Origin: a virus
Length of the DNA stretch: 64,000 nt
IMG/VR virus record: IMGVR_UViG_3300030107_007542
Coordinates: 92,967-156,966 of that record
Direction: 5' to 3' (one strand)
Shown here piece by piece: positions 8,117 to 61,706 of this stretch. Under the pieces are notes generated by a model. That model ran no database searches. It was given only the letters and a program-made list of their open reading frames with translations, and was not told the origin of the DNA. The position numbers were made by a program, and so were the translations under genes. Each line of letters opens with the position of its first letter. Position 1 is the stretch's first letter.

Positions 8117-11100
8117 TTAACAAACATTCGAACTTTGTCCGTCTGCTGCGTTCTGCTGCGAGTTTCCGGTTCCCGATTCTGCGTCCACTTCATCATTGTT
8201 TTGTCCTTCTTCTAAAAGCATCAGTAAGAGATAAATTATACCCAATGGGCTCGGCGGCATGCAGAACAAGCCGACGATAGTCCCAGTGAAATCAACACCT
8301 CTGGTTGTCATCTTCGGACCGAGAGAAGGAGCCTCTAGAGGCCCAGGTGGATCAGGAAGGGCGTTAGTAGCTTCTGCATTCATAGTATTAAGGCCGCAGA
8401 ATGCCAAAGCCAATAACTGTTCGCCCTCAAGATCCTTCAGCATAGGCTTGATAGGTGACTCGTCTGGCTGTACGGCCACCGCAACGTCAATTCCTTGATC
8501 GATGGCATCGATAACAAAAGAAAAGACCTGACCAGTGATTTCACGAACAATCTTCCAAATCGCCACATGAGGATCAATCATCTCTGCCAAGCCCTTAAGA
8601 ATCTTAATTGGCGTCTCGCGGAGCATTTTCATAATGAACTCGCGCGCGGACATTCCCATATCGGATTCGCCGGCGGAGCCTAGGCTGTTGGTCAGCGCCG
8701 TGGAGGCGCTGTCCTCCGGGCCACCTACGGGGGGAGCCATATCCGTTCGAGACATCATCCCAAAGAGATCCAGTATCACTTGCTTGGTTGTATTAAAATT
8801 ATCTTCAATTCCCTCAAAGAAAGTGTTGGTAAGTCCCAAGTTATAAAGGAGCGGCACCATCAAAATCATCTCGGGGTTAAATGTTTGAGAGATAAAACGA
8901 GAATATTCCACATCTTCCTTAATACGAGGAACGTGGACTGCAGGGGACGTACGATTAAATCTCTTGATCTTATCAAGCCTACTATCCATGGAGGTGCCTG
9001 TGTTGGCGTTATTAGGGTTTGGGTTCGTTGCAAGGCCGGTAACCATGCTAGCAGAGGGAAGCGCTTGATTTGAGTTGGAACTTGCGGCGTTAGCCTCTAG
9101 TTCATTGGGATTAAAATCACCTATAGCGTAAATATCCACCGTTAAAAGGTCCCCTAGAATCTGGGCTCCAGGGTTCGACGCATCCAGATCTGTCTGCGCT
9201 GCGTCTAGAATAGAATCATGTCCAACCGCGCGGCCTTGCAAATTCATTGCCTTGACCATAAGGTTTCGTACGGGCCCTGATCTAAACGACTGAACAAAGG
9301 GAGAATTGGATTGATCCCAATCGTTCTCTGCCGTACTGCTGCCGCCGCGGTAGTGCGGGAAGTTGAACATTAATTTATAGCCTACCTTCAAGTTTTCAAA
9401 AATCGGAAGAGTTCCTTCCGTAAGTTCAATAAGATCAATAAAATCTACTGCAGTGTTAGTGCGTACTGGCATGGCTCCGCCAGCGGAGGAGCCCAATATA
9501 TCTTGCAACGTTAAGACATGGCGGGGGAGGCTCCCATCGGGGCGCGCACCAACCGTAGCCTGGTGCCAGTCGACGTGAGTGGTGTGACCAGTGACATGGA
9601 TCCCGCCGGCGGCGAACCAATCCTGTACGGCGTTCTCCCAGGAGGTGTCCCAGGCGCCCTGCGCTCTTTCAAGCTCACGCGGATGCCAGGGAACCTGGAC
9701 CTCAGAAGAACTAAGATCTTCCCAGTTTGAAATTCCATCCCAGTATGCATACTTGGCAAAAAAGACTCGGCCCTCACCAGATTTCATAGGTGCATTTTTG
9801 CGCCCATAAGGCGCCTTATAGATTCCTAAAACCTCTTTAATAAAAATGTCTTCATAACTCGAATCAGCGCCAGTGGTGCTTAAGATATTATTAATAGACT
9901 GCATCGTATTAACCATCTGACCACAAACCTCATAAGTAAAGCCCATGCGCTCTTCAATCAGATATTGAATTATCTTACTAAATGGTAGACTATTCATATC
10001 GGTACCCGTTTTGAGGTATGGAACTACCGTATCGCGTGCAAAGGAGTGGGTGATACCTCCAGCTGCCATGGCCCTGGTCCTATTCAACATTTTCTCAAAT
10101 CGATCCCGCAAAAAGACATCCAGGCCTGCGCCGCCTTCGCCCAATTTAGCTGATATCTGGTTGACCATGCTTGTCATGAACAACTCTCGCAAAAGAGGCT
10201 TTTCAAAAATTTCCTCAAACTGAAATGCACTGACAACAAAAATATTCTTTATTAAGAATTCAACAATATAAACCTGGATGAACAGATTGATGAGTCCCAT
10301 TTTTAGGGCGTCTCTGGCGCAATCTTTCGCGTCTCCCTCATCATTGCAGGCTGCTTCGCCAAAATCTTCTTTAAGTTGGGCCAATATTCCCCTAACATCT
10401 AGTAGATCGCCTGTCTGGGCTGGGTCACAGTTTGTGTTGTCTTTAAAAAGATTTAAAGAATTTAACTTTGCCAGGGTAAAAATTCCATTTCGCTGGATGT
10501 ACCCAAAGATTCTTTTCACCATTCCATTCATAGCTGTTGGGAACACTTGCTTTTGCAGCTTATTTTGTAGATATTTCTTGTTAGCTGCGCTCAGTGGTGC
10601 ATCCGCAAGGCTTATCAGTTGCTTCTGGAGAGGGTATGTAAAATTAAAGATATAGGGATTGAAATCGCTCTCTGTCCCGAACCCAGACACAGCATCTTCA
10701 GGATCTGCGCCGGCGCCGTACAGAGGCGTAAAAGAAGGGTCGTCGACGATGCCCTCAAGCCAGCCTTGCTCGACGCCGGGGAGCAAACCATTTGGGATTC
10801 CCATACGGAATGGAGGTCGGCCGGCCATAATATCATTGTTGGAATAGAATTCCAGATTGAGTGGGTCGATCTTTGGCACGACTTTACTCAAGAATCGATA
10901 TTGCATTCTTAATCGCCCGTATTCGTCGTTGGTCTTGTCCGTCAGCATGCGCGAGTAATAGGTTTGGTCACCACCGGGGGATTCCGTCCGAGTACGCCAC
11001 ACATTATTCGGCTTATCACTACCCGCTATCTCAACATACTCCGGAGGCGTTTGTCGTGCCATGGCCATGAAATTATTATAGAAATTACGCGAGAAGACAT

Positions 11101-14100
11101 ACGTCACGTTGGGAGGTGACCCACCACCGTCGTCCATTGTAGCCTTAATATCAGCAATCTTATTATTTACATCTGCTATGGCGGCTTGCGCTTCACCACC
11201 TTGGGCTAAAACATCTTCAATGATGCCGTTTATTATAGGAAGCATTTCCTCGAATGCCTCCAGGCTACCTCCGAGCTTATTCAGATTAACATCGGGACAG
11301 ACCTCCGGGTCGATGTTAAGTCCCACATTAGATATCTCTTCAAAAATATCAGACAAAGTAGAAAGAAACCTAGTATCCATCTTAGGTGGATCAACACAAT
11401 CATCTCCCACTTTTCCATGCACACACAGTTGTTTTAAAGCTTCATCTACCGCGGGATTACCACCACCACCATTAGCACCCCCGGCCCCAGCCACAACCTT
11501 GGGCTCTAGTAGAGTAGCTCGGCTGGCCTCTACTGAGTATACAAACTGCATCTTTACATTGTCAACGGTGCTATTAAAGATGGAAGGAATAACACGGTCT
11601 ATGACGGGGTTAGCCAAAAATTGAGGGTGCTCGGGACATAAAAGATTCGGTAGAAGTGAGCTAGGGTCAATTGGAATGCCGTCATTTAACATGGAAGCGA
11701 GCTTTTGAATGCTCTCTTGGTCAGCCAGAGGAGAAAGATCAGCTTCATTTAAACAATAGTTCTCTATAGCTGCTCTTAGGTCCACATCATTTATCAAATC
11801 ATTGCAAACCGTTTCCATGTTGGCAAGAGGTGCCAAAGCGCCGAAGAACGACAGAACAAGGTTGCGACTCTGAAGAACTTGAATTTGTGGCTCTGGCCAT
11901 GTTGTATTAAAGATAGCAATTTTTTGAATTGTGGTATCTTGCACATCCGCACGAGAATTGAAGAGGCGGCATACCTCCAGAGGTGTAAGGACCGCGCTCA
12001 CTGCTGACAAATAATCAAAACCCCTGTCCTGATCTAAGCCAAACTGGTCGAAGGCGTTGTTAAGCAGATCCTCCATGTCTGGAGTTATGGGAGGGCCGCC
12101 TTTCAAATTATCCTTCATTGCTTGGGCTGCATCAACCGCACCCAATTGTTCAGGGCGGTTCAATAGATTATCACAATTAAATTTAATTATTTCAGCTAAG
12201 CCCGAGACGAGATCCATTGCTAATTCCATTAAGATTTCCAAAAGCATGTCAACAATCTGCTTCCACAATGGAGGATCACCGGTGATCGGATTGGGTATTA
12301 CTATCTCTGGAAATTCAGGAATCTCTAGGAGCGGCTTAGGAATTTTTGGAGGCTCATAGTCCTCTATCATTTGAGCTATATCTAATCCTGAGTTTATTGC
12401 ATCTTTGATCCTATCAAGCGAAAAATTAGTTCCCATTGTTAGGCAAATCAATGCTTCACCAATTAACTCGATGATTCCAAAGCGCGCGAGGACTTCGTCC
12501 ATGATCTCCAGAGTATCCCGAACCTGCTTAACACCACCCCCTTCTCTGGAAGATGTCCTATCGCGAGTTAAGTCTGCTCGCGCCCGGTCCAGGACTCGTT
12601 GCGCGTCTTCAATACGGAGACCGTCGCCGGAGTCCATGGCAGCCTGTAGATCCTGCTCAGCAGTCTCCACTTTGCTCTCTAACTCGCGTCGTTCTTCCAC
12701 TGCGGCAGAAATCCCCTTGGCTTCCTTAACCATGGCGATAACATCATCAATGACCTGTTTAATGGGAAATTTCGCTTCAAAGGTTTTGTTTGCGTTTTCT
12801 AAGAACAAAGCCGCTTGCGCGTCTGGGTCATTAAGAGCAACTTCTAAAGCTGCTACTTCTTCGGATCTCAAAAACGTGCTCAAAGTGGCAGCGAGCGCGA
12901 CCGGGTTACTTACATCAAGTTTGGTGGAACTCTCGGCAGCCTGAAATATCGAATTGTACAAAAACGGGTTTACACCAGGAGGTGCAGGCGCTTGAAACTC
13001 TACCTCTATTGAGGCGCCATCGTCCGATGACAATCGAACGGGCGCAGCGGCCGTCATCAAAGCGGCAGGAGTCAGGCCGAGAAGTGGCCCATATGTACTC
13101 TGGATAAATTCAAGTAATGAACTGAGGCCCGTGGTTCCGCGTGCATTCACATCAAAATCGGAAATTATCCTACGATGATTTCTTAGCGTCTCTATCAGCC
13201 ATGGATCTTTCGCAGTGCGGTTGTACTTAATGAGAGAAAACAAACCGATCTTGAGAGCCCCCATTTCAAGGCCATCTAAAGTATCCAACTCATAGGTAGC
13301 AGAAAGGATGTTTTGATTAGGCCCAAGTTGAATTCGAAGGACATCATCGTCTCCTAGAGTACCAGAGTTCTTACCCGATAAATTCAAATCACGACGGACT
13401 GCGGCGACCAAATCTCCCACAAACATCCGTATCTCTGTACTGATTGCTTCCAGATCTAAAGGAATCTTCAGAGGGGCAGGATAACGTATAATCTGCTTAT
13501 TATAGGCATTGAGTGTTGCTGTCAGGTCTCGGGTCATCTGTGCAGCAGTTCCCAGATTAATAATAATCTCGCCTCCAGGGTTACGCTGATCGGATTGATA
13601 ATATTGCTCTATAAAATATTGTCTTGCTTCCGTGTAGCTCGGAAATCCAGAACTATATGAAGGAACCCCCGGAGTTTGGCCCGGGAGCAAACAAGGATCA
13701 CCACTTACTGCAGCCTGAATTGTAGCGGTCGTCGCATTTGCAGCCTCTTGCACTTGAGGGTTATATTCTCGCAAGCCTTGGCGTATTCGCTTAAAATTTA
13801 TGGTGCCAGGGGAGGTCATAAAATAATATTTAGGTGCGATAGGCGATGCGCTATCAAGATCGGCGGCGCCTTGATCGGATTTTATAAACTCAAGATTAGC
13901 AAGAATTTGACCACGAATAGTGTTGTAACTGTCTGTGGCACCGGTCGGGAGCGAAGGTATCGTTGGCTGCGGGGATAGGCTAGCTTTCGACTGGCGCTTA
14001 CCCTTTTTAGCGGAGCGTCGGGACGTCTTAGGCTTAGCTTTTGGTGCACCCTGAGTTAAAGGATAGAACTCTGGTAAATAATATTCTATTAAAGCATTCA

Positions 14101-45834: not shown

Positions 45835-46197
45835 TTATTCTAAATCATTCTTATAGGAGTTCTTAATGTCATATTTACGTTTCAAAGCTTTAAAGGTCTG
45901 CTCACTAATTCCTAAGATTCTAGTAGCCCCCTTATTGGTATCAGTTATACTAATCACTGCATTATATAGCGCTTCCTTCGTAATATCAACCACATTCGAC
46001 CAAAGATTAAATCCATATAGTTTCCCCCCAGTTAGTCGACTGGAGCATTCTAATTTAAGGCCTATTAGTTCTTCCAAGGTTAATGTGGAGAGCATGATTT
46101 CAAATGCCTCGTTAGATTTGTTTTCGTCTCTCAACTTTTTAGAGAGAGAAAGATCTTTACAAAAACCCTGCGAACTTCGTCGCGGAGGTTTGTTCAT
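45835..46197 (-). CDS. Small protein with C-terminal Fis-like helix-turn-helix
   Basis: 120 aa. The last ~45 residues (ALYNAVISITDTNKGATRILGISEQTFKALKRKYDI) have the Fis/NtrC C-terminal HTH pattern: helix, N-x-GA-x-x-LGIS-x-x-T-x-x-x-KLKKY-like. The N-terminal ~75 residues are charged and helical. A DNA-binding role is likely; no activator ATPase domain is present. Sits upstream of the mini-tmRNA. Confidence 0.65.
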   Translation of the reverse strand: MNKPPRRSSQGFCKDLSLSKKLRDENKSNEAFEIMLSTLTLEELIGLKLECSSRLTGGKLYGFNLWSNVVDITKEALYNAVISITDTNKGATRILGISEQTFKALKRKYDIKNSYKNDLE

Positions 46198-47025
46198 TTA
46201 TAATAAATTTTTAATAATGTCGTCTACATCAAGGTGCTTAAGCAGCTCTTGCAGTTCTAATCCAACTTCTTCTTCCGCCGCAGCCGGCTCATCAATTGCG
46301 TCTTCCTCGGCATCCACAGCCTCTTCAGGCTCGGGAACATCAGCTGGTAATTCGGACTCATACTTATCGAAATATAAGGCCAGATTTTTAATAAGATATT
46401 CTTCGAACATCTTAAGATCCTCAGGATCGTCGAGATCATCGTACGCCCGGAGGATTACTTTCGAGATAGTTTGGAAGTCAGTATACGCCTTATTTCGGCC
46501 GGTTTTGTCTTCCCCGGAGATTGCAAATTCTTCCTTTTCAACTTCTCCATCAGATTTTACAACTTCTTTTTCTTCCACATCAATAAAGTCTGGATCATCT
46601 TCTGGATTATCAACACTGATATTGATATCCTCATCTAGAGGACCACCTTCTACACTGGCAGAGGCCTCAATGGTGTCATCGGCTTCTTTTCGGGACTCTT
46701 CAGGTGCAAGTGATTTTTCAACTGCAACTAGAACATGGTTTCTGTAAGACATCCTCTGTTCTTTGGCAGTCGTGAGGGATTTATACCCCTTTTCCAAAAC
46801 GGAGAGAATGTTAGAATTCTTAAGAAGATCTTCTAATACGTTAATACCAGTGTTGGCGTGCTTGGCAGTTGTGGTAACAGCGGTTTGACCTTCGCGAATC
46901 AAGTCACGAACGAGTTCTCGCAATTGACGCTCGTCGCTTGTATGTCGCGACTGGACCACTCGGATCGCTCGTCGCACGGTTTCGCGCAATTTCAATTCTT
47001 CTGCAAATTCTTCTCTGTTTATCAT
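46198..47025 (-). CDS. Acidic head/internal-type protein of unknown function
   Basis: 275 aa, with very acidic stretches (residues ~125-165 and ~235-260). The N terminus MINREEFAEELKLRETVRRAIRVV is helical. The middle is helical (LLKNSNILSVLEKGYKSL). The acidity and the position just ahead of other head-type genes suggest a scaffold or internal protein. No family recognised. Confidence 0.6.
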   Translation of the reverse strand: MINREEFAEELKLRETVRRAIRVVQSRHTSDERQLRELVRDLIREGQTAVTTTAKHANTGINVLEDLLKNSNILSVLEKGYKSLTTAKEQRMSYRNHVLVAVEKSLAPEESRKEADDTIEASASVEGGPLDEDINISVDNPEDDPDFIDVEEKEVVKSDGEVEKEEFAISGEDKTGRNKAYTDFQTISKVILRAYDDLDDPEDLKMFEEYLIKNLALYFDKYESELPADVPEPEEAVDAEEDAIDEPAAAEEEVGLELQELLKHLDVDDIIKNLL

Positions 47026-49136: not shown

Positions 49137-49279
49137 TACTTTTCACTAGATTTGGTAGTAGTACTCGAAGACTTCTTACGTGGTTTCTTGGGAGCGGCTA
49201 CTTTCGGTTTTGAAACCTCAGGCTCTTCTACCTTTTCAACCGCCGGCTTAGGCGGGGTGATAATCCATGGAGCAGCCAT
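49136..49279 (-). CDS. Short Pro/Lys/Ser-rich protein
   Basis: 47 aa. Rich in Lys, Pro, Ser and Thr (PKKPRKKSSSTTTKSSEK at the end), like histone-H1 or DNA-packing peptides, after an acidic EKVEEPEVSK section. Its TAA overlaps the next ATG (TAATG). Too short for fold prediction; real gene supported by tight spacing and a neighbour of similar composition. Confidence 0.5.
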   Translation of the reverse strand: MAAPWIITPPKPAVEKVEEPEVSKPKVAAPKKPRKKSSSTTTKSSEK

Positions 49280-49281
49280 TT

Positions 49282-49578
49282 TTACTTCTCCTCTTTCTTG
49301 GTTCTGGAACCCCTTCGGGTTCTCTTCGGTGTGGACTCAGCCACGGGTTCGGCTTTTTTGGCTTTAGCTTTTTCCTCAGCCTTAGCAGCTTCAGCAGCAA
49401 CCCGCGCTTCTTCTTTCGCTCTTGCCTCAGCTTTAACCTTTTCTGCTTCGGCTCGTGCTTTTTGAGCAACGTCAGCCTGTCGAACCGTCTCTTCAGCTTG
49501 GGCCCTGAGAGCTTCGGCGGCTTCTTCTGCCGCGGCAAGGGCTGCCAGCCTCCTTCGTTTAACGTTTGGTGCTACCAT
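49282..49578 (-). CDS. Ala/Lys/Glu-rich histone-H1-like or core protein
   Basis: 98 aa. Repeats AEAEKVKAEARAKEEARVAAEAAKAEEKAK-type, then a basic tail (KRTRRGSRTKKEEK). Highly helical. The composition resembles phage internal/DNA-condensing or head-core proteins. It starts at the ATG at 49578; a different reading frame through the same stretch is rejected. Confidence 0.6.
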   Translation of the reverse strand: MVAPNVKRRRLAALAAAEEAAEALRAQAEETVRQADVAQKARAEAEKVKAEARAKEEARVAAEAAKAEEKAKAKKAEPVAESTPKRTRRGSRTKKEEK

Positions 49579-49579
49579 C

Positions 49580-50569
49580 TTATTTGCCTTCCTTTCTGAT
49601 ACGCTCGATAATGCGTCGAGTGATCTCTTTGGCTTCCTTTACGGAGATTTTACCTGAGGTGTTCTCGCTCATTTTCTTGGCCATACCATATTGATTACCA
49701 CGCATATCACTGCTTTCGGGATTCACCTTATCCAGGCAAGTCTTGGTTTCTTCATCCCAATCAACACAGTCATCGTCGCGATACATCATTTCAGAAACGG
49801 GGTGATCCTCACCCGGATGTGCTTCGTCGCAACTTTGTCCAGGATGTCCAGCGCCTTCGTCCATGTGGTCATCTTCACGATGCTGATCAACACCCATATC
49901 ATGTCGCAGGGCGTCCAGATGATGCTCGATGCTGTCGAGATGATGCTCTAGGCGATCTTCTTCGCGCTTGTCGGCACTCTCATCTTCTCCATAGTGCTCG
50001 CTTTCTTCTTCTTTGGAGTCTTCCTGAAGTTGGTCTTTAGACTCCTTAAGAAGTCCCCACTTCTTCATCAAGAGCGTGTTAAGCTCGTTATCTTTCCATT
50101 CTTTAAGTGACATCTGTGGTTCTCCTGAATCTTTAAAATTGATATCTATGGTAATCTTACCTCTCTTAATTAGGTCCTCAAAGTCCCTAAAGATCAAATT
50201 ACCTTTGGTATACGCTTCGCGCTCCATTTTTCGTAAGTGTGGATCACGCTGTGCGTATCCGGGGCTTGTGTCATCCGAGCCATCAAAATCTCCGCGGCAA
50301 TTCTGGGCGTGATGTACTAACTCATGAGAGAGTGACCTCATAATATCTTTAGGATGACGTTTATCCGTGAAGAGATAAACTTCAAAAGTCTCAGGGTTAT
50401 AATGAGCAGTTTTTCCCAAAAGTACATCAGCATTGCTAGGATCAGATTGAAATACAATTTTCACTGGCTGGTCAAATCCAAGCTGTTGTTGGGAATATGG
50501 AAGAAAGCCCTTCACCATCTGTTCTAAATGGGAAATATTGCCTCCGGTATTGTTCTGACAACTGTGCAT
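49580..50569 (-). CDS. Phage metallopeptidase-like protein with acidic His-rich tail
   Basis: 329 aa. SHELVHHAQN carries HExxH (H82, E83, H86) of a zincin. Residues ~180-260 are Glu/Asp/His-rich, with repeats such as LEHHLDSIEHHLDALRHD. The start may be a later Met. Zincins are common near phage head and lysis genes; substrate unknown. A CTATTTATT motif lies just upstream (50573-50582). Confidence 0.7.
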   Translation of the reverse strand: MHSCQNNTGGNISHLEQMVKGFLPYSQQQLGFDQPVKIVFQSDPSNADVLLGKTAHYNPETFEVYLFTDKRHPKDIMRSLSHELVHHAQNCRGDFDGSDDTSPGYAQRDPHLRKMEREAYTKGNLIFRDFEDLIKRGKITIDINFKDSGEPQMSLKEWKDNELNTLLMKKWGLLKESKDQLQEDSKEEESEHYGEDESADKREEDRLEHHLDSIEHHLDALRHDMGVDQHREDDHMDEGAGHPGQSCDEAHPGEDHPVSEMMYRDDDCVDWDEETKTCLDKVNPESSDMRGNQYGMAKKMSENTSGKISVKEAKEITRRIIERIRKEGK

Positions 50570-54273: not shown

Positions 54274-54933
54274 CTATAGCGTCAATAGCCACTCAATTGA
54301 ATGGATAACTTCTTCTGCGTTATAACCGCGGTCTATATCTCTCAATACCATCTCTCGGTCGATGTAATAAAAAGTTGGCCACCCTGTAAGGGGCCATGGC
54401 CCGCCCGAGCTTTCTAGAATTGCTCGACTTGCACCGATTACCAAGGAATCGCTAAGACCATACTCCGCTCCCCATGCTGCTACATCAGCTTGGGTAGGAA
54501 TATCTCCGTTTGCCGTCTCAATGAGAACTGTTATATATAGGAGGCCCGTGTCGGCATATAGATCCTGGACCTCTTCGGCATGCGCGGCTGCCAGTCTACA
54601 GGGTCCACACCATCCAGTGGAGAAATCCAGGACAATCGGGCGCCCAAATTGAGCATACAATCCGAAGTTGTCTCCATTTTGGTCGGGCCCTGTGAGGTTG
54701 CAGGGGTGATCACCCTCTACTCCAGAACAAGTGCTCCAAGTTATTGGACTTGGGGGCAGTAAGTCAAGTGGGTTGGTATCATGAATTGCTTCAAGAGTGG
54801 ATAAAAAGACATCATTTTCCACATTTGTCGGCGAAATATCCTTTTGTGGATCGATGGTTTTAAAATTATTGGCTTCTGGTGGCGTACAAGCGCTCGCGAG
54901 CAAACAAAATGCTGCTAAAAGTGTTCGTAACAT
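54274..54933 (-). CDS. Thioredoxin-fold lipoprotein (TlpA/ResA-like)
   Basis: 219 aa. Signal MLRTLLAAFCLLASAC with lipobox and Cys16. DFSTGWCGPCRLAAAHAEEV carries the WCGPC redox motif (C109, C112), and TGWPTFYYI has the cis-Pro. The redox domain should face the periplasm, as TlpA/ResA proteins that reduce disulfides. An auxiliary phage gene; periplasmic target unknown. Confidence 0.87.
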   Translation of the reverse strand: MLRTLLAAFCLLASACTPPEANNFKTIDPQKDISPTNVENDVFLSTLEAIHDTNPLDLLPPSPITWSTCSGVEGDHPCNLTGPDQNGDNFGLYAQFGRPIVLDFSTGWCGPCRLAAAHAEEVQDLYADTGLLYITVLIETANGDIPTQADVAAWGAEYGLSDSLVIGASRAILESSGGPWPLTGWPTFYYIDREMVLRDIDRGYNAEEVIHSIEWLLTL

Positions 54934-56131: not shown

Positions 56132-56632
56132 TTATAAGTACTCTTTCCATTTGAGATTCACCTCACCTATGCGTTTTTTAATAATAGAACGATAGGTAGG
56201 TTTTTTTGGACGCTGAATTAGGGAAACTGGAGCATTTTCAACAAGATAATCACGTTTTTTCTGGTTGCAGGGCTTGCATGCGGCTACTAGATTGTTCCAT
56301 TGTGATATACCGCCTTTAGATTTAGGAATGACATGATCAAGGGTTAGATCTGCTTCACGAAAGTACTTGGCGCAATATTGGCATCGATTTTCGTCTCTGG
56401 CGAGAATATTTTTTCGTGTACAAGGTAAAGTAAAGAATTTTTCATCAATAAAGCGCTTTAAAACAATAACAGAAGGGATTTGGAATGCTCTTGTGGCAGA
56501 ATGAACCCATTTATCGGTATATTCGACAGCCCAGGCCTTTTTAAGCCATGTTAGGACAACTGCTTCCTCCCAGCTAATGACTTCGATGGGTTTGAACGAC
56601 GAATCGAGTTTTAGGACTGTGATGTTGTCCAT
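56132..56632 (-). CDS. HNH endonuclease
   Basis: 166 aa. C84 and C87 (RCQYC), DHVIPKSKGG with H100, NN at 113-114 and C119/C122 (AACKPC) form the HNH zinc and metal sites, matching the family layout. Residues 1-70 are an N-terminal extension with WEEAVVLTWLKKAWAVEYTD that many phage HNHs carry. It may act in mobility, packaging or degradation of host DNA. CTATTTATA lies upstream (56677-56669). Confidence 0.9.
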   Translation of the reverse strand: MDNITVLKLDSSFKPIEVISWEEAVVLTWLKKAWAVEYTDKWVHSATRAFQIPSVIVLKRFIDEKFFTLPCTRKNILARDENRCQYCAKYFREADLTLDHVIPKSKGGISQWNNLVAACKPCNQKKRDYLVENAPVSLIQRPKKPTYRSIIKKRIGEVNLKWKEYL

Positions 56633-56743: not shown

Positions 56744-56772
56744 TTGCAATCTTGCCATAAGTCGATTATAAT
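56744..56772 (+). promoter_or_regulatory. Near-consensus sigma-70 promoter for the YeaH-SpoVR-PrkA operon
   Basis: TTGCAA at 56744-56749, a 17-bp spacer, and TATAAT at 56767-56772. Transcription would start ~56780, 45 nt before the YeaH ATG at 56825. It is the best host-type promoter seen in the window, and suggests early expression by host polymerase. Confidence 0.8.
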
Positions 56773-56824
56773 ATGAAAGAGATTAAAACTAAACAGTTTT
56801 GTCGGGTATCAAGGTAATTAGTGT

Positions 56825-58069
56825 ATGAGCGTCTTCCGTAAACACAAATCCATCGTCGATCGCGCCGCATCCGATCGGACGCGTCACAAAAAAAAGATTG
56901 ACAAGGCAATTAAAGAGTCAATTAAAGATGTGGTGGCCGAAGAATCCATTATTGGACAAAATGGCAAGAAAAAGATCCGTATTCCGGTAAAAGGGATCAA
57001 AGAATATCGTTTTATCTACGGAAATAACGAAAAAAACCAGTCTGTTGGCTCTGGAGGGGATCATACTCTTAAAAGAGGTCAGAAAATCGGTGGCAAACGC
57101 GCCAAGAAGGGCCAAGGCCAAGGCCAAGGGAAAGCTAGCAATGAGCGCGGCGAGGAGTACTACGACGTAGAGATTACCCTAGAGGAATTAGCTGAATACC
57201 TCTTCAATGACCTTAATTTGCCCGATTTGGAGAAAAAACAGTTCCGTTTCATCACACAAGAGTCTATAAAGCGCAAAGGATACCGCTTTCAGGGCATTCG
57301 GCCGCGGCTCTCTAAAAAAGAGACCATTAAAAGGAAGATTCGACGTCGAAAACGCGCTGAAAAGGCCGGTACCTATGATCCAGAGGGTGACGAGCGCTTT
57401 CCTTTTCACAAAGATGACCTGAAATATCACCATATTAAGCCCAAATCGAAAGAAAACAGTGCAGCAGTCATCTTTTTTCTCATGGACGTGTCGGGATCTA
57501 TGTCTCAGGACCGAAAATTCCTTGCAAGGAGCTTCTTTTTCCTCTTATATCAGTTTCTAAACCATAAATACGAGAAATTAGATGTTGTTTTCATCTCTCA
57601 CAGTACATATGCAGAGCGTGTTAACGAAAATGACTTCTTTCGGGTGGCCTCAAACGGCGGAACTCTGATTTCAAGCGCTTTGGACAAAGAATTAGAAATA
57701 ATTGACAAAGAATATCACCCAAATGCCTGGAATATTTATACTTTTTACTGTGGCGATGGTGAAAATTGGGCATCTGACAACGAAAAAGCTGTTGATGACT
57801 TTAAAAAGATTAAAGAGGTTAACCAATTGGTAGGATATTGTGAAATTAATGAAAATTATTCGGGACTTGCGGACACAGATGACAATCCCTCCACCTGGAC
57901 GGGGCTCCCATGGGGTACTTTTTCGGCATGGAAAAACGAAGAGCCCGATAATCTATGGTCCAATTTAAATCCTATATGTGACAGCTCATTCAAACGAATT
58001 ATGATTGGAAGCACGGACCATATATGGCAAGCCTTTACATATCTATTTGGAGGAGGCTCTAATGAGTAA
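56825..58069 (+). CDS. yeaH: YeaH/YhbH-family protein (DUF444, VWA domain)
   Basis: 414 aa, family length. The basic N terminus (SIVDRAASDRTRHKKKI) and GSGGD...RGQKI are typical of YeaH. A VWA MIDAS motif is at MDVSGSM (D221, S223, S225). SRPF, FHKDDLKYHHI and FISHSTYAERV, NENDFF stretches also match DUF444. In bacteria YeaH partners with the kinase YeaG (PrkA) and with SpoVR. First gene behind the sigma-70 promoter. Confidence 0.92.
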   Translation: MSVFRKHKSIVDRAASDRTRHKKKIDKAIKESIKDVVAEESIIGQNGKKKIRIPVKGIKEYRFIYGNNEKNQSVGSGGDHTLKRGQKIGGKRAKKGQGQGQGKASNERGEEYYDVEITLEELAEYLFNDLNLPDLEKKQFRFITQESIKRKGYRFQGIRPRLSKKETIKRKIRRRKRAEKAGTYDPEGDERFPFHKDDLKYHHIKPKSKENSAAVIFFLMDVSGSMSQDRKFLARSFFFLLYQFLNHKYEKLDVVFISHSTYAERVNENDFFRVASNGGTLISSALDKELEIIDKEYHPNAWNIYTFYCGDGENWASDNEKAVDDFKKIKEVNQLVGYCEINENYSGLADTDDNPSTWTGLPWGTFSAWKNEEPDNLWSNLNPICDSSFKRIMIGSTDHIWQAFTYLFGGGSNE

Positions 58070-59369
58070 TTGGACAGTTGGCGACCTGGAGATGTGGGAC
58101 AACAAAATATGCAAGGTTGCTACAGATTTTGATCTAGATTGGTTCCCCATCGACTATGAAATCATAGATTATCAAGAAATGCTGGGAGCTATGGCTTATA
58201 CTGGTATTCCGACCCACTACCGCCACTGGTCCTATGGAAAAGAATACGAGCGCACACATACTCTTTATAACATGGGGCAGACTGGTCTTCCCTATGAGAT
58301 GATCATCAATTCTAACCCGAGTATTGCATACCTGATGCGTGAAAATCCTTTGTACATTCACGTACTGACGATGGCACACTGTGTGGGACATAGTGACTTT
58401 TTTAAACAAAATCGCATGTTTGCCCACACCAATCCCGACAACGTCATGAGTACTTTTAAGGCAGCTGCAAAGTATGTTAGGCAGCTTATTGAGGATCCTT
58501 CAATTGGAATTGAAAAGGTTGAGCGCATTCTGGATGCTGCACATGCCATTAAATACCAGGTCCCGCGCTATCCTGGGATCACTTATAAAACAAGAGAAGA
58601 GTGGGTGGCGATCGAGCGTAAAAAACAACAGAAAGATCCCACCTATCAAGTAGATCTAAAAAAATACCCTCATGAGCCAGAGTATAACCTACTGCTTTTT
58701 ATAGCCAACAATAGTCGAAACCTTGAAGACTGGGAACGAAACTTATTGATGATCGTAGAAGAAAACTCACAGTATTTCATTCCTCAGGCACTTACGAAGA
58801 TAATGAATGAGGGGTGGGCTTGCACTATTCATCAAAAGATTATCAATGAATTGAATCTTCCGGACAAGCTATATTTACCCTTTATTAAATTACACAACCA
58901 AGTGGTACGCCCCCACTTGGGTACTGTCAATCCTTACCATTTAGGGTTTGAATTATTCAAGAAGATTATCGAAGAGCACGGTTTTGAAGAAGCGATGCTA
59001 ATTCGCGAAACACATAATGATATTACCTTTTTGAGAACCTATTTAGATCAAGAGTTTCTTATGGATCAAAATCTTTTTAGTTATTCATTTAAATCGGCTT
59101 ACAAATCAAGTACAATTGATGATATATCAGATGAAGGTGGCTGGGAGCGCATCAGGGATGCTCTTATCTCTAACGTAGGGTTGAACCGCGTACCTGTTGT
59201 GTTTGTAATGGAAATGAATAAGGATCACAAATTAACCTTAGTTCATGAACATGATGGTAGAGATCTAGATGTGCCTTATGCACAAAAAGTTTTTGATTAC
59301 ATAAAAGACCTTTGGGGAGATGAGATAGTACTTCTCTCTCAGATAGAGGGCGAAACATGGGAGTTTTAG
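58062..59369 (+). CDS. spoVR: SpoVR family protein (YcgB-like)
   Basis: 435 aa from the ATG at 58062; a 19-residue longer reading overlaps YeaH further and lacks a site, while this ATG follows GGAGG inside the last YeaH codons. The start LDWFPIDYEIIDYQEMLGAMAYTGIPTHYRHWSYGKEYERT is a SpoVR signature, and AHCVGHSDFF, NSRNLEDWERNLL, PHLGTVNPYHLGF, FLRTYLDQEFL match. SpoVR is needed for B. subtilis cortex formation; in proteobacteria it is a starvation gene. Confidence 0.93.
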   Translation: MSNWTVGDLEMWDNKICKVATDFDLDWFPIDYEIIDYQEMLGAMAYTGIPTHYRHWSYGKEYERTHTLYNMGQTGLPYEMIINSNPSIAYLMRENPLYIHVLTMAHCVGHSDFFKQNRMFAHTNPDNVMSTFKAAAKYVRQLIEDPSIGIEKVERILDAAHAIKYQVPRYPGITYKTREEWVAIERKKQQKDPTYQVDLKKYPHEPEYNLLLFIANNSRNLEDWERNLLMIVEENSQYFIPQALTKIMNEGWACTIHQKIINELNLPDKLYLPFIKLHNQVVRPHLGTVNPYHLGFELFKKIIEEHGFEEAMLIRETHNDITFLRTYLDQEFLMDQNLFSYSFKSAYKSSTIDDISDEGGWERIRDALISNVGLNRVPVVFVMEMNKDHKLTLVHEHDGRDLDVPYAQKVFDYIKDLWGDEIVLLSQIEGETWEF

Positions 59370-59370
59370 C

Positions 59371-61305
59371 ATGGGAGTAACAAACAAGTTTCTGGAAACG
59401 ATCCAGGCACACAAGGAGGGCGCCAAAAAAGAAAAGTTTGATGGCCTTCTCCAAGATTACTTAGAACTTATTGAAAACGGCGACGTCAAGCCGGTATTGG
59501 CTCACAAGCGCCTGTACGATGGCATCCTCTCGTATGGCATGGAGACGCTAGACGAGTCTGACAGTCGATGCAATAAGATCTTCGACGGCGAGCCAGTGCG
59601 TATTTATGATTATTTTGCATCTCAATTCTTTGGCATGGAGCGCTCTTTAGAGAAAGTAATGCGATTCCTCCATTCTGCTGCCATGAAGGGAGAGGAAAGT
59701 CGACAGGTCTTGCTACTTCTGGGCCCTGTAGGCGCCGGAAAGTCAGCTCTCGTAGAACACATCAAGAGCGCCCTGGAGAAGCTTGACCCGGTTTATACTC
59801 TCAAGGGTTGTCCAATTCAAGAAGAGCCGCTCCACTTGATCCCTCGCTCTCTAAGAGCAGAGTTTGAGGAGTTGTACAACGTCAAGATTGAAGGAGACCT
59901 TTGCCCGGTCTGTCGACACCGACTTTTAAAAGAATACGAGGGGGACTACACACGATTTCCCATTACTGAGGTCTCATTCTCAATTCGCGGCCGTAAGGGT
60001 GTCGGCGTCGTGCCTCCCATGGATCCGAACACTCAAGACACAAGCCTCCTCATTGGCTCCGAAGATATTTCAAAACTAGATCTCTATCCGGAGGACGACC
60101 CCCGCGTACTTAGCCTTAATGGTGCTTTTAATGTAGGTAATCGAGGTATCGTCGAGTTTGTCGAGGTCTTTAAAAACGAAATTGAATTCCTTCATACCAT
60201 GATCACAGCCACGCAGGAAAAGAGTGTTCCATCGCCAGGCAAACAGGCTATGATTTATTTTGATGGCGTCATTCTAGCTCACTGTAATGAAGCAGAGTGG
60301 AACAAGTTTAAATCTGAACATACCAACGAAGCTATCCTGGATCGAATTGTGAGGGTGAATGTTCCTTACTGTTTAGAGTACGAGCAGGAAGTAAAGATTT
60401 ATGAAAAGCTCCTTGGCCGCTCAGATTATCGGTGTCATATCGCGCCGCACACACTAGAGGTAGCCGCAATGTTCGCTGTTCTGTCGCGACTACACTCCTC
60501 CAATAAAGCTGACCCCTTGACCAAGATGAAAATCTACAACGGTGAGGAAATCATTGAAAAGGGTCTCATTCGTAAAATTGATATTAAAGATCTTCGTGAA
60601 GAAGTAGAAGACGAAGGAATGACAGGAATCTCTACTCGCTTTATCATGAAAGCCATTGATGCCGCACTAGCCGACTCCACTAAAGATATGATCACTCCCA
60701 TATCGATTCGGGATGCTCTGATTAAACAGGTAAAAGAACAGATTACCAATTCGGACGCCAAGAAGACATATCTCTCATATCTTCAGAAAACACTTCATGA
60801 GGAATATCTAACAATCCTTGAGAAGGAAATTACCAAGGCATTTGTTACAGCTTATGAAGAGCAAGCTGAGTCCCTCTTTAACAACTACCTTGATCACGCC
60901 GAGGCCTATGTTAATAACACCAAGGTAAAGGATAAAGTTACCAGCGAAGACATGGAACCCGATGAGAAGTTCCTCCAATCAATTGAGGAGCAGATCGGCA
61001 TTAAGGGTTCTGCCAAGAACAACTTCCGAGCTGACATTACCTCCTACATGTTTTCAAAGTTGCGGCGAGGAGAAGCAATTGACTGGCGTTCTTATGGTCC
61101 TCTAAGGGAGGCGATTGAAACAAAGCTTGTTGCATCGGTGCGAGACATTTCTCGAATTATCACAAAGTCTAAGTCGCGCGATACCAAGCAGCAACGTAAG
61201 TTCAGCTCAATGGTTCAGACCTTAATTGACAATTATGGTTATAATGAAGATTCAGCCGAAGAAGTGATAAAGTTTGCTAGCAACAATCTTTGGAGAGACT
61301 CTTAA
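59371..61305 (+). CDS. prkA: PrkA serine protein kinase / AAA protein
   Basis: 644 aa, full-length. The PrkA AAA domain begins with MGVTNKFLETI, has FFGMERSLEKVM, Walker A GPVGAGKS (118-125), DTSLLIGSEDISKLDLYPEDDPRVLSLNGAF near 230-260, and the family-specific GKQAMIYFDGVILAHCNEAEW. The C-terminal kinase region includes GISTRFIMKAIDAALAD and helices to the end. Starts 2 nt after the SpoVR stop. Its TAA overlaps, in convergent orientation, the stop of the thioesterase gene. Confidence 0.95.
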   Translation: MGVTNKFLETIQAHKEGAKKEKFDGLLQDYLELIENGDVKPVLAHKRLYDGILSYGMETLDESDSRCNKIFDGEPVRIYDYFASQFFGMERSLEKVMRFLHSAAMKGEESRQVLLLLGPVGAGKSALVEHIKSALEKLDPVYTLKGCPIQEEPLHLIPRSLRAEFEELYNVKIEGDLCPVCRHRLLKEYEGDYTRFPITEVSFSIRGRKGVGVVPPMDPNTQDTSLLIGSEDISKLDLYPEDDPRVLSLNGAFNVGNRGIVEFVEVFKNEIEFLHTMITATQEKSVPSPGKQAMIYFDGVILAHCNEAEWNKFKSEHTNEAILDRIVRVNVPYCLEYEQEVKIYEKLLGRSDYRCHIAPHTLEVAAMFAVLSRLHSSNKADPLTKMKIYNGEEIIEKGLIRKIDIKDLREEVEDEGMTGISTRFIMKAIDAALADSTKDMITPISIRDALIKQVKEQITNSDAKKTYLSYLQKTLHEEYLTILEKEITKAFVTAYEEQAESLFNNYLDHAEAYVNNTKVKDKVTSEDMEPDEKFLQSIEEQIGIKGSAKNNFRADITSYMFSKLRRGEAIDWRSYGPLREAIETKLVASVRDISRIITKSKSRDTKQQRKFSSMVQTLIDNYGYNEDSAEEVIKFASNNLWRDS

Positions 61306-61706
61306 GAGAAATCGGCGGTTTGTTTGCGATACTTCTGTCGCACCTTTTGCGAAATGGGAATAGCTTCCCCGTCACCATCAATTCGTACAAAGGTCATTTG
61401 CGTACTAACCACAGAGCGTTGTGTACCATTATACACCGAATGCCTTCTGGCTTCCATGTTTAATGTAAGAGAAGTTTTCCCCACCTTAGCAACCTCTCCG
61501 TAGATTTTAATAATCTGTCCTGGTCGACATGGCTTTTCAAAGGTAAGACTACCAATGTGCTTAGTAACCATTCTAGGGGTATCGGCCGCCTGAGCTGCAA
61601 AAGCCGCGGCAGCCTCATCAAGCCACGCAAGCATTACTCCGCCAAAAAGGTTTCCATGGTACCCTACGTCTTGAGTCTTAACAAAGTGTGTTGAAATTAG
61701 TTCCAT
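61302..61706 (-). CDS. Acyl-CoA thioesterase, YciA/hotdog family
   Basis: 134 aa. YHGNLFGGVMLAWLDEAAAAFAA with D30 and ITKHIGSLTFEKPCRPGQII are hotdog-fold hallmarks; a Lys-rich tail follows. YciA-like enzymes cleave acyl-CoAs, giving free CoA and fatty acid. Auxiliary metabolic gene. It ends tail-to-tail with PrkA. Confidence 0.9.
   Translation of the reverse strand: MELISTHFVKTQDVGYHGNLFGGVMLAWLDEAAAAFAAQAADTPRMVTKHIGSLTFEKPCRPGQIIKIYGEVAKVGKTSLTLNMEARRHSVYNGTQRSVVSTQMTFVRIDGDGEAIPISQKVRQKYRKQTADFS

Follow-up and report, generated by a model that had tools for sequence, protein, structure and literature searches.

A tailed-phage contig carries, complete and in one operon, the three genes yeaH/yhbH, spoVR and prkA of a known bacterial module, and this trio looks like standard phage equipment. 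Phage trios of this type form one clade and descend with the phage: a large lineage of myoviruses gained the trio a single time, far back, from a source resembling Bacillota, and has handed it down since.

Phage spoVR or prkA genes are already known (PMC8504454, PMC8940887, Thermus phage annotations and PHROG families). Ralstonia jumbo phage RsoM2USA has a spoVR with prkA two ORFs away (PMC8504454), and oxygen-minimum-zone viruses carry spoVR as an auxiliary gene (PMC8940887). Neither report, RsoM2USA being compared here by description only, presents the full trio as a module that phages inherit. An incomplete search of the literature turned up no account of the whole trio being inherited vertically in this phage lineage, and none of its permuted order or of SpoVR having a zincin-like fold. 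Surveys count viral 'spoVR' among the auxiliary genes of sporulation; the present results suggest that it belongs to a module of three genes, which need not have to do with spores.

Genes and promoter of the trio

The window, our term for the whole stretch of 64,000 nucleotides analysed, covers positions 92967-156966 of the 193,778-bp virus record IMGVR_UViG_3300030107_007542. Besides a DNA polymerase with a DnaE-like start, this 193.8-kb tailed-phage contig encodes a terminase, a T4-type major head protein and a tail sheath, in agreement with the phage context originally predicted. Among cultured phages, Microcystis phage Mel-JY01 (47%) and Flavobacterium phage immuto (44%) have the closest terminases, and neither is among the phage records holding a trio gene. 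In two related records (G302 and G304) the gene order continues from the end of the contig into its start; the phage map is therefore probably circular and the contig nearly complete.

ORF and Pfam profile analysis gave three intact plus-strand ORFs at 56825-61305 (Table 1). Their products score above the Pfam cut-offs: 471.5 bits for AAA_PrkA and 270.7 bits for the PrkA C-terminal domain (cut-offs 25), 351.5 bits for DUF444/YeaH-YhbH (cut-off 27), which has an intact MIDAS and a vWA fold, and 384.9 bits for SpoVR PF04293 (cut-off 27). They do not reach the NCBIfam equivalog cut-offs set for the E. coli and B. subtilis types (spore_yhbH 373 versus 468, PRK11767 272 versus 679, PRK15455 408 versus 576 bits), so the function of the phage trio may have shifted from those types. 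The ends of yeaH and spoVR share 8 nt and a single nucleotide separates spoVR from prkA, which makes translational coupling across the three genes likely. The dN/dS values of about 0.02-0.05 for the closest usable pairs show the trio to be under strong purifying selection. With the domains, motifs and constraint all in place, the complete trio of the original prediction stands, as does its claim of an unusual gene order, here yeaH-spoVR-prkA versus prkA-yeaH-spoVR in bacteria. The trio is also, as had been stated, the only clear plus-strand multi-gene unit within the window, single plus-strand ORFs (such as 45866-46747 and 49267-49599) being left aside.

Table 1. Features at the trio locus, in window coordinates
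Feature	Position	Strand	Remarks
Predicted sigma-70-type promoter	56744-56772	+	TTGCAA-17-TATAAT; 10/12 match
Palindrome AAAACTAAACAGTTTT (AAAACTAAAnnGTTTT)	56785-56800	+	Directly downstream of the predicted promoter; single copy in the genome searched
yeaH/yhbH	56825-58069	+	414 aa; DUF444 protein with vWA/MIDAS domain; PF04285, E 1e-104
spoVR	58062-59369	+	435 aa; ATG start at 58062; PF04293, E 5e-115, plus SpoVR_C
prkA	59371-61305	+	644 aa; AAA+ ATPase / 'serine protein kinase' family; PF08298, E 2e-141; PF06798, E 2e-80
HNH endonuclease gene, flanking	56132-56632	-	PF14279/PF01844; outside the module; same place in L002-L006; used for junction check
Hotdog thioesterase gene, flanking	61302-61706	-	PF03061; convergent, overlaps prkA stop; outside the module

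The sigma-70-type promoter claimed for the operon is, taken alone, near chance: an 8-kb region held 19 promoter-like matches against 16.3 expected, and the window promoter is therefore weak by itself. It gains weight because relatives of the same subclade have equally spaced promoters in much the same position, namely a perfect TTGACA-17-TATAAT in L002 and L003 and TTGAAG-17-TATACT aligned with the window's site in L004-L006; this conservation of position backs the claim. A private trio promoter as a general feature was ruled out, since only 7 of 83 loci have a promoter of 10/12 or better at most 200 bp from yeaH. The palindrome in Table 1 may be an operator, and a similar one, AAAACTAAAATGTTTT, occurs in L004-L006.

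Distribution and descent

Scanning viral contigs with the window PrkA showed that at least 208 encode a close PrkA, and the best 80 of these 208 were fetched for locus comparison. Every one of the 79 fetched loci long enough to include yeaH holds the three genes, like the window, in one operon, with the order yeaH-spoVR-prkA on the same strand; L014, which starts inside spoVR, shows spoVR-prkA. The search of viral collections proposed with the original prediction thus found trios common to at least 80 related viral loci.

Among the fetched loci the window's flanks are shared only by L002-L006, and only this small subclade has a lone, flipped plus-strand trio under its own promoter; most relatives are co-directional with their neighbours. 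One subclade (e.g. L008, L020 and L043) has the trio near genes for the major head protein and a head-tail adaptor and, in loci whose flank extends that far, the tail sheath. PhoH adjoins the trio in L007, L010, L011, L044 and L046, a PLP-dependent enzyme gene follows it in 7 loci, and the neighbours in other subclades include Nudix genes. A divergent GroEL-like gene lies directly 3′ of prkA in 29 of the 72 loci having a downstream ORF (e.g. L016:7953-9281); its product, of about 400-470 aa, is assigned to the PHROG chaperonin groEL and matches the GroEL profile at 1e-18. A separate canonical chaperonin was found in 14 of 18 records tested. The trio cassette moves within phage genomes yet remains whole.

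When records were instead sampled by terminase, 8 of 30, mostly fragments, carried prkA; five of the 8 were already known carriers, and G291, G294 and G299 are carriers outside the 80 fetched loci. The long prkA-less records G280, G302 and G304 do not cover the trio region, and G292 (164 kb) may truly be without a trio. The trio is thus common in this phage lineage, with its universal presence unsupported by such fragmentary records. The carriers are a large group of uncultured, apparently marine phages; 'marine' is taken from the spoVR-bearing viruses of oxygen-minimum zones in the literature and from three marine MAGs, rather than from sample data.

A three-protein tree unites the window-type phage trios in a single clade (support 100) and makes the Bacillota trios its sister group (99); the PrkA tree gives the same clade in the same position. 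The order is prkA-yeaH-spoVR in 7 of 7 sister-branch Bacillota loci, in 2 Pseudomonadota and in Thermomicrobium. PrkA distances track terminase distances (Mantel r = 0.865, 0 of 5000 permutations, n = 19 records), and the trio therefore descends with the phage. The part of the original prediction that gave way is the moron-type acquisition: the trio does have its own promoter in one subclade, to which the lone plus-strand position is peculiar, but it is no recent sporadic insertion, being old, monophyletic and co-diverging with terminase across the related loci. As to the early expression proposed along with it, one subclade has its trio among structural genes. The bacterial trio sequences sampled cover three phyla plus plasmids, which leaves room for a true donor outside the sample; the bacterial contig scan used patterns conserved in phages and consequently found few bacteria. 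Among the sequences sampled, an Alicyclobacillaceae contig (L093) encodes the bacterial PrkA nearest to that clade (55%); yeaH directly follows prkA there, and spoVR is on other contigs.

Compared with the bacterial prkA-yeaH/yhbH-spoVR module (yeaGH plus ycgB), the phage trio has the same three full-length families in one operon with intact motifs, the Bacillota branch being nearest; it differs in gene order, in its sub-equivalog NCBIfam scores, and in being carried and inherited by phages. Thermus phages TMA/YS40, MN1, phiLo and Lalka8 also bear the trio in the permuted order, TMA with one extra gene between spoVR and prkA. A common origin with them was rejected despite the shared order (one clade, AU p = 0.0008, to be read with caution given long branches). 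Since these phages share the order and fall elsewhere in the tree, it would have arisen more than once or been passed on in a way invisible to the tree, again with caution for the long branches. Uncultured phages of about 600 kb (LR745206, LR756504 and LR756511) carry the trio as well, LR756502 having spoVR apart, but in the bacterial order prkA-yeaH-spoVR, and three of the four PrkAs group with Pseudomonadota in the PrkA tree. Phages thus acquired the trio at least three separate times, which argues that the three genes act jointly and benefit large phages. In a phage of about 636 kb (L264), two DNA-methyltransferase-like ORFs lie between yeaH and spoVR (10507-12191).

Protein features and possible roles

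In PrkA the Walker A motif GPVGAGKS and residues D298, N306 and R325 are conserved, and the protein is homologous over its length to the solved 'serine protein kinase' PDB 9xip. A 2026 study characterised the B. anthracis homologue as an AAA+ protein whose protease and kinase activities in vitro are negligible, and traced the weak proteolysis reported earlier with B. subtilis PrkA to possible contaminants (PMC13001217). The YeaH MIDAS residues D221, S223, S225, T280 and D311 are invariant in 30 phage proteins, and the YeaH model aligns with vWA domains at Z scores up to 16.8, among them the MIDAS domain of the AAA+ machine Rea1 (Z 14.5). The phage SpoVRs have invariant HxxGH and NEGxA motifs. 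A SpoVR model (mean pLDDT 82.9) aligned by VIA-align gave top rows that are mostly zincin metallopeptidases, the best with Z 11.6 over 182 residues, while Foldseek gave no significant match; two conserved His and one Glu sit in helices of the expected zincin kind. The catalytic Glu of HExxH is absent in every SpoVR examined, an HCVGH/HVYGH-type motif taking its place in the phages and bacteria examined. Sequence search found no solved structure for SpoVR or YeaH.

The explanation we favour, with confidence about evenly balanced for it as a whole, is that the trio is an ancestral PrkA-YeaH-SpoVR remodelling machine that shifts host stress and growth control. Judged from homology and fold, PrkA would form an ATP-driven AAA+ ring with YeaH as its vWA/MIDAS partner or substrate adaptor, and SpoVR, zincin-like in its model without the catalytic Glu and possibly metal-binding, would handle or process the remodelled protein. 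AAA+/vWA pairs of the MoxR-vWA type and the Rea1 MIDAS offer a parallel of an AAA+ ATPase with a MIDAS-bearing vWA partner, in architecture and with no membership claimed. Less certainly, the targets might be host proteins, and the machine might shift the stress and growth control of the infected cell such that a long infection can be sustained even in starved hosts. With its sigma-70-type promoter, the trio of the window's subclade would be open to transcription by host polymerase, without depending on the minus-strand genes around it.

Host stress control is a plausible leading guess for the phage trio because bacteria use these genes there, in starvation and stress (PMC4664914). The intact domains and motifs, the operon common to all 79 loci, the well-supported trio clade, its co-divergence with terminase, the strong constraint, the repeated acquisition, the AAA+/vWA pairing, the zincin-like SpoVR model and the position-conserved subclade promoter support the favoured explanation. 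Counting against it are the missing zincin Glu, the nonsignificant Foldseek result and the scores below equivalog cut-offs, as well as the several subclades with the trio among structural genes or beside the GroEL-like gene, an arrangement that fits assembly or folding too. A broader formulation, doubtful in our estimate, is that an uncharacterised AAA+/vWA/zincin-like protein-processing machine was separately adopted as core infection equipment by several large-phage lineages and coupled, in one of them, to the divergent GroEL-like protein of the next gene.

These neighbour genes make the folding or assembly of phage proteins the main rival: the trio would be a proteostasis or morphogenesis machine that remodels, matures or solubilises capsid, connector and tail proteins beside the phage chaperonins. 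The subclade with the trio between head/adaptor genes and tail sheath speaks for it, as do the Thermus phage Lalka8, whose trio lies between portal/minor head and terminase genes, the GroEL-like gene following prkA, and the canonical chaperonins. Position by itself, however, says little for a moving cassette, and the trio adjoins PhoH, PLP-enzyme or Nudix genes in other subclades and, in the window, where it has a promoter of its own, HNH and thioesterase genes; bacterial homologues moreover work without phages. We consider this rival rather unlikely. An improbable one is that the trio counters host defence or growth arrest, for example by restraining toxin-antitoxin modules, for which the repression of mqsRA and dinJ-yafQ transcription by E. 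coli YeaG (PMC4664914) is a precedent and with which the repeated acquisition by large phages agrees; a defence-family search gave no link for SpoVR or YeaH and a weak DolB match for the PrkA ATPase region. Membership of a defence system was rejected on that search.

An old, strongly constrained phage trio with about 200 detected relatives, together with the cultured Thermus phages and their separately acquired trio, offers a route to the biochemistry of PrkA, YeaH and SpoVR by way of phage deletions, interaction partners and targets.

Contig junctions and other observations

Chimeric assembly at 56.7 or 61.3 kb or contamination from a bacterial contig, either of which was named in advance as refuting a phage-borne trio, can be dismissed almost with certainty: trio genes are common in bacteria and viral contig collections include some false positives, but the junctions recur in independent contigs (L002-L006 repeat the upstream HNH gene and the downstream small minus-strand genes), 12 of 20 carrier records have a phage terminase, and the phage trio is the single, terminase-tracking clade described above. 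The thioesterase gene lies upstream of the trio in L002-L006, unlike in the window.

Contamination was seen in the reverse direction. Three contigs from public MAGs labelled Legionellales, Methylococcaceae and Halobacteriovorax (L090, L091 and L092) carry a phage-type trio together with phage neighbour genes and are probably mis-binned phage, which suggests that bacterial MAGs contain phage-type trios as contaminants. On a further contig, the Halobacteriovorax MAG also encodes another SpoVR and PrkA, which differ from these.

Elsewhere in the window, a long minus-strand run at 18360-38737 has gene starts like those of nucleotide-sugar epimerases, dehydrogenases and glycosyltransferases (N-termini only) and is probably a phage-borne surface-glycan island. 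At 54274-54933 a thioredoxin/AhpC-like protein with a lipoprotein-like N-terminus is encoded next to an amidase (endolysin-like) gene. In L083, the translation of an ORF at 9968-11026 (about 30 kb in the whole record) includes a few undetermined residues in a row, reflecting a gap or ambiguous bases.
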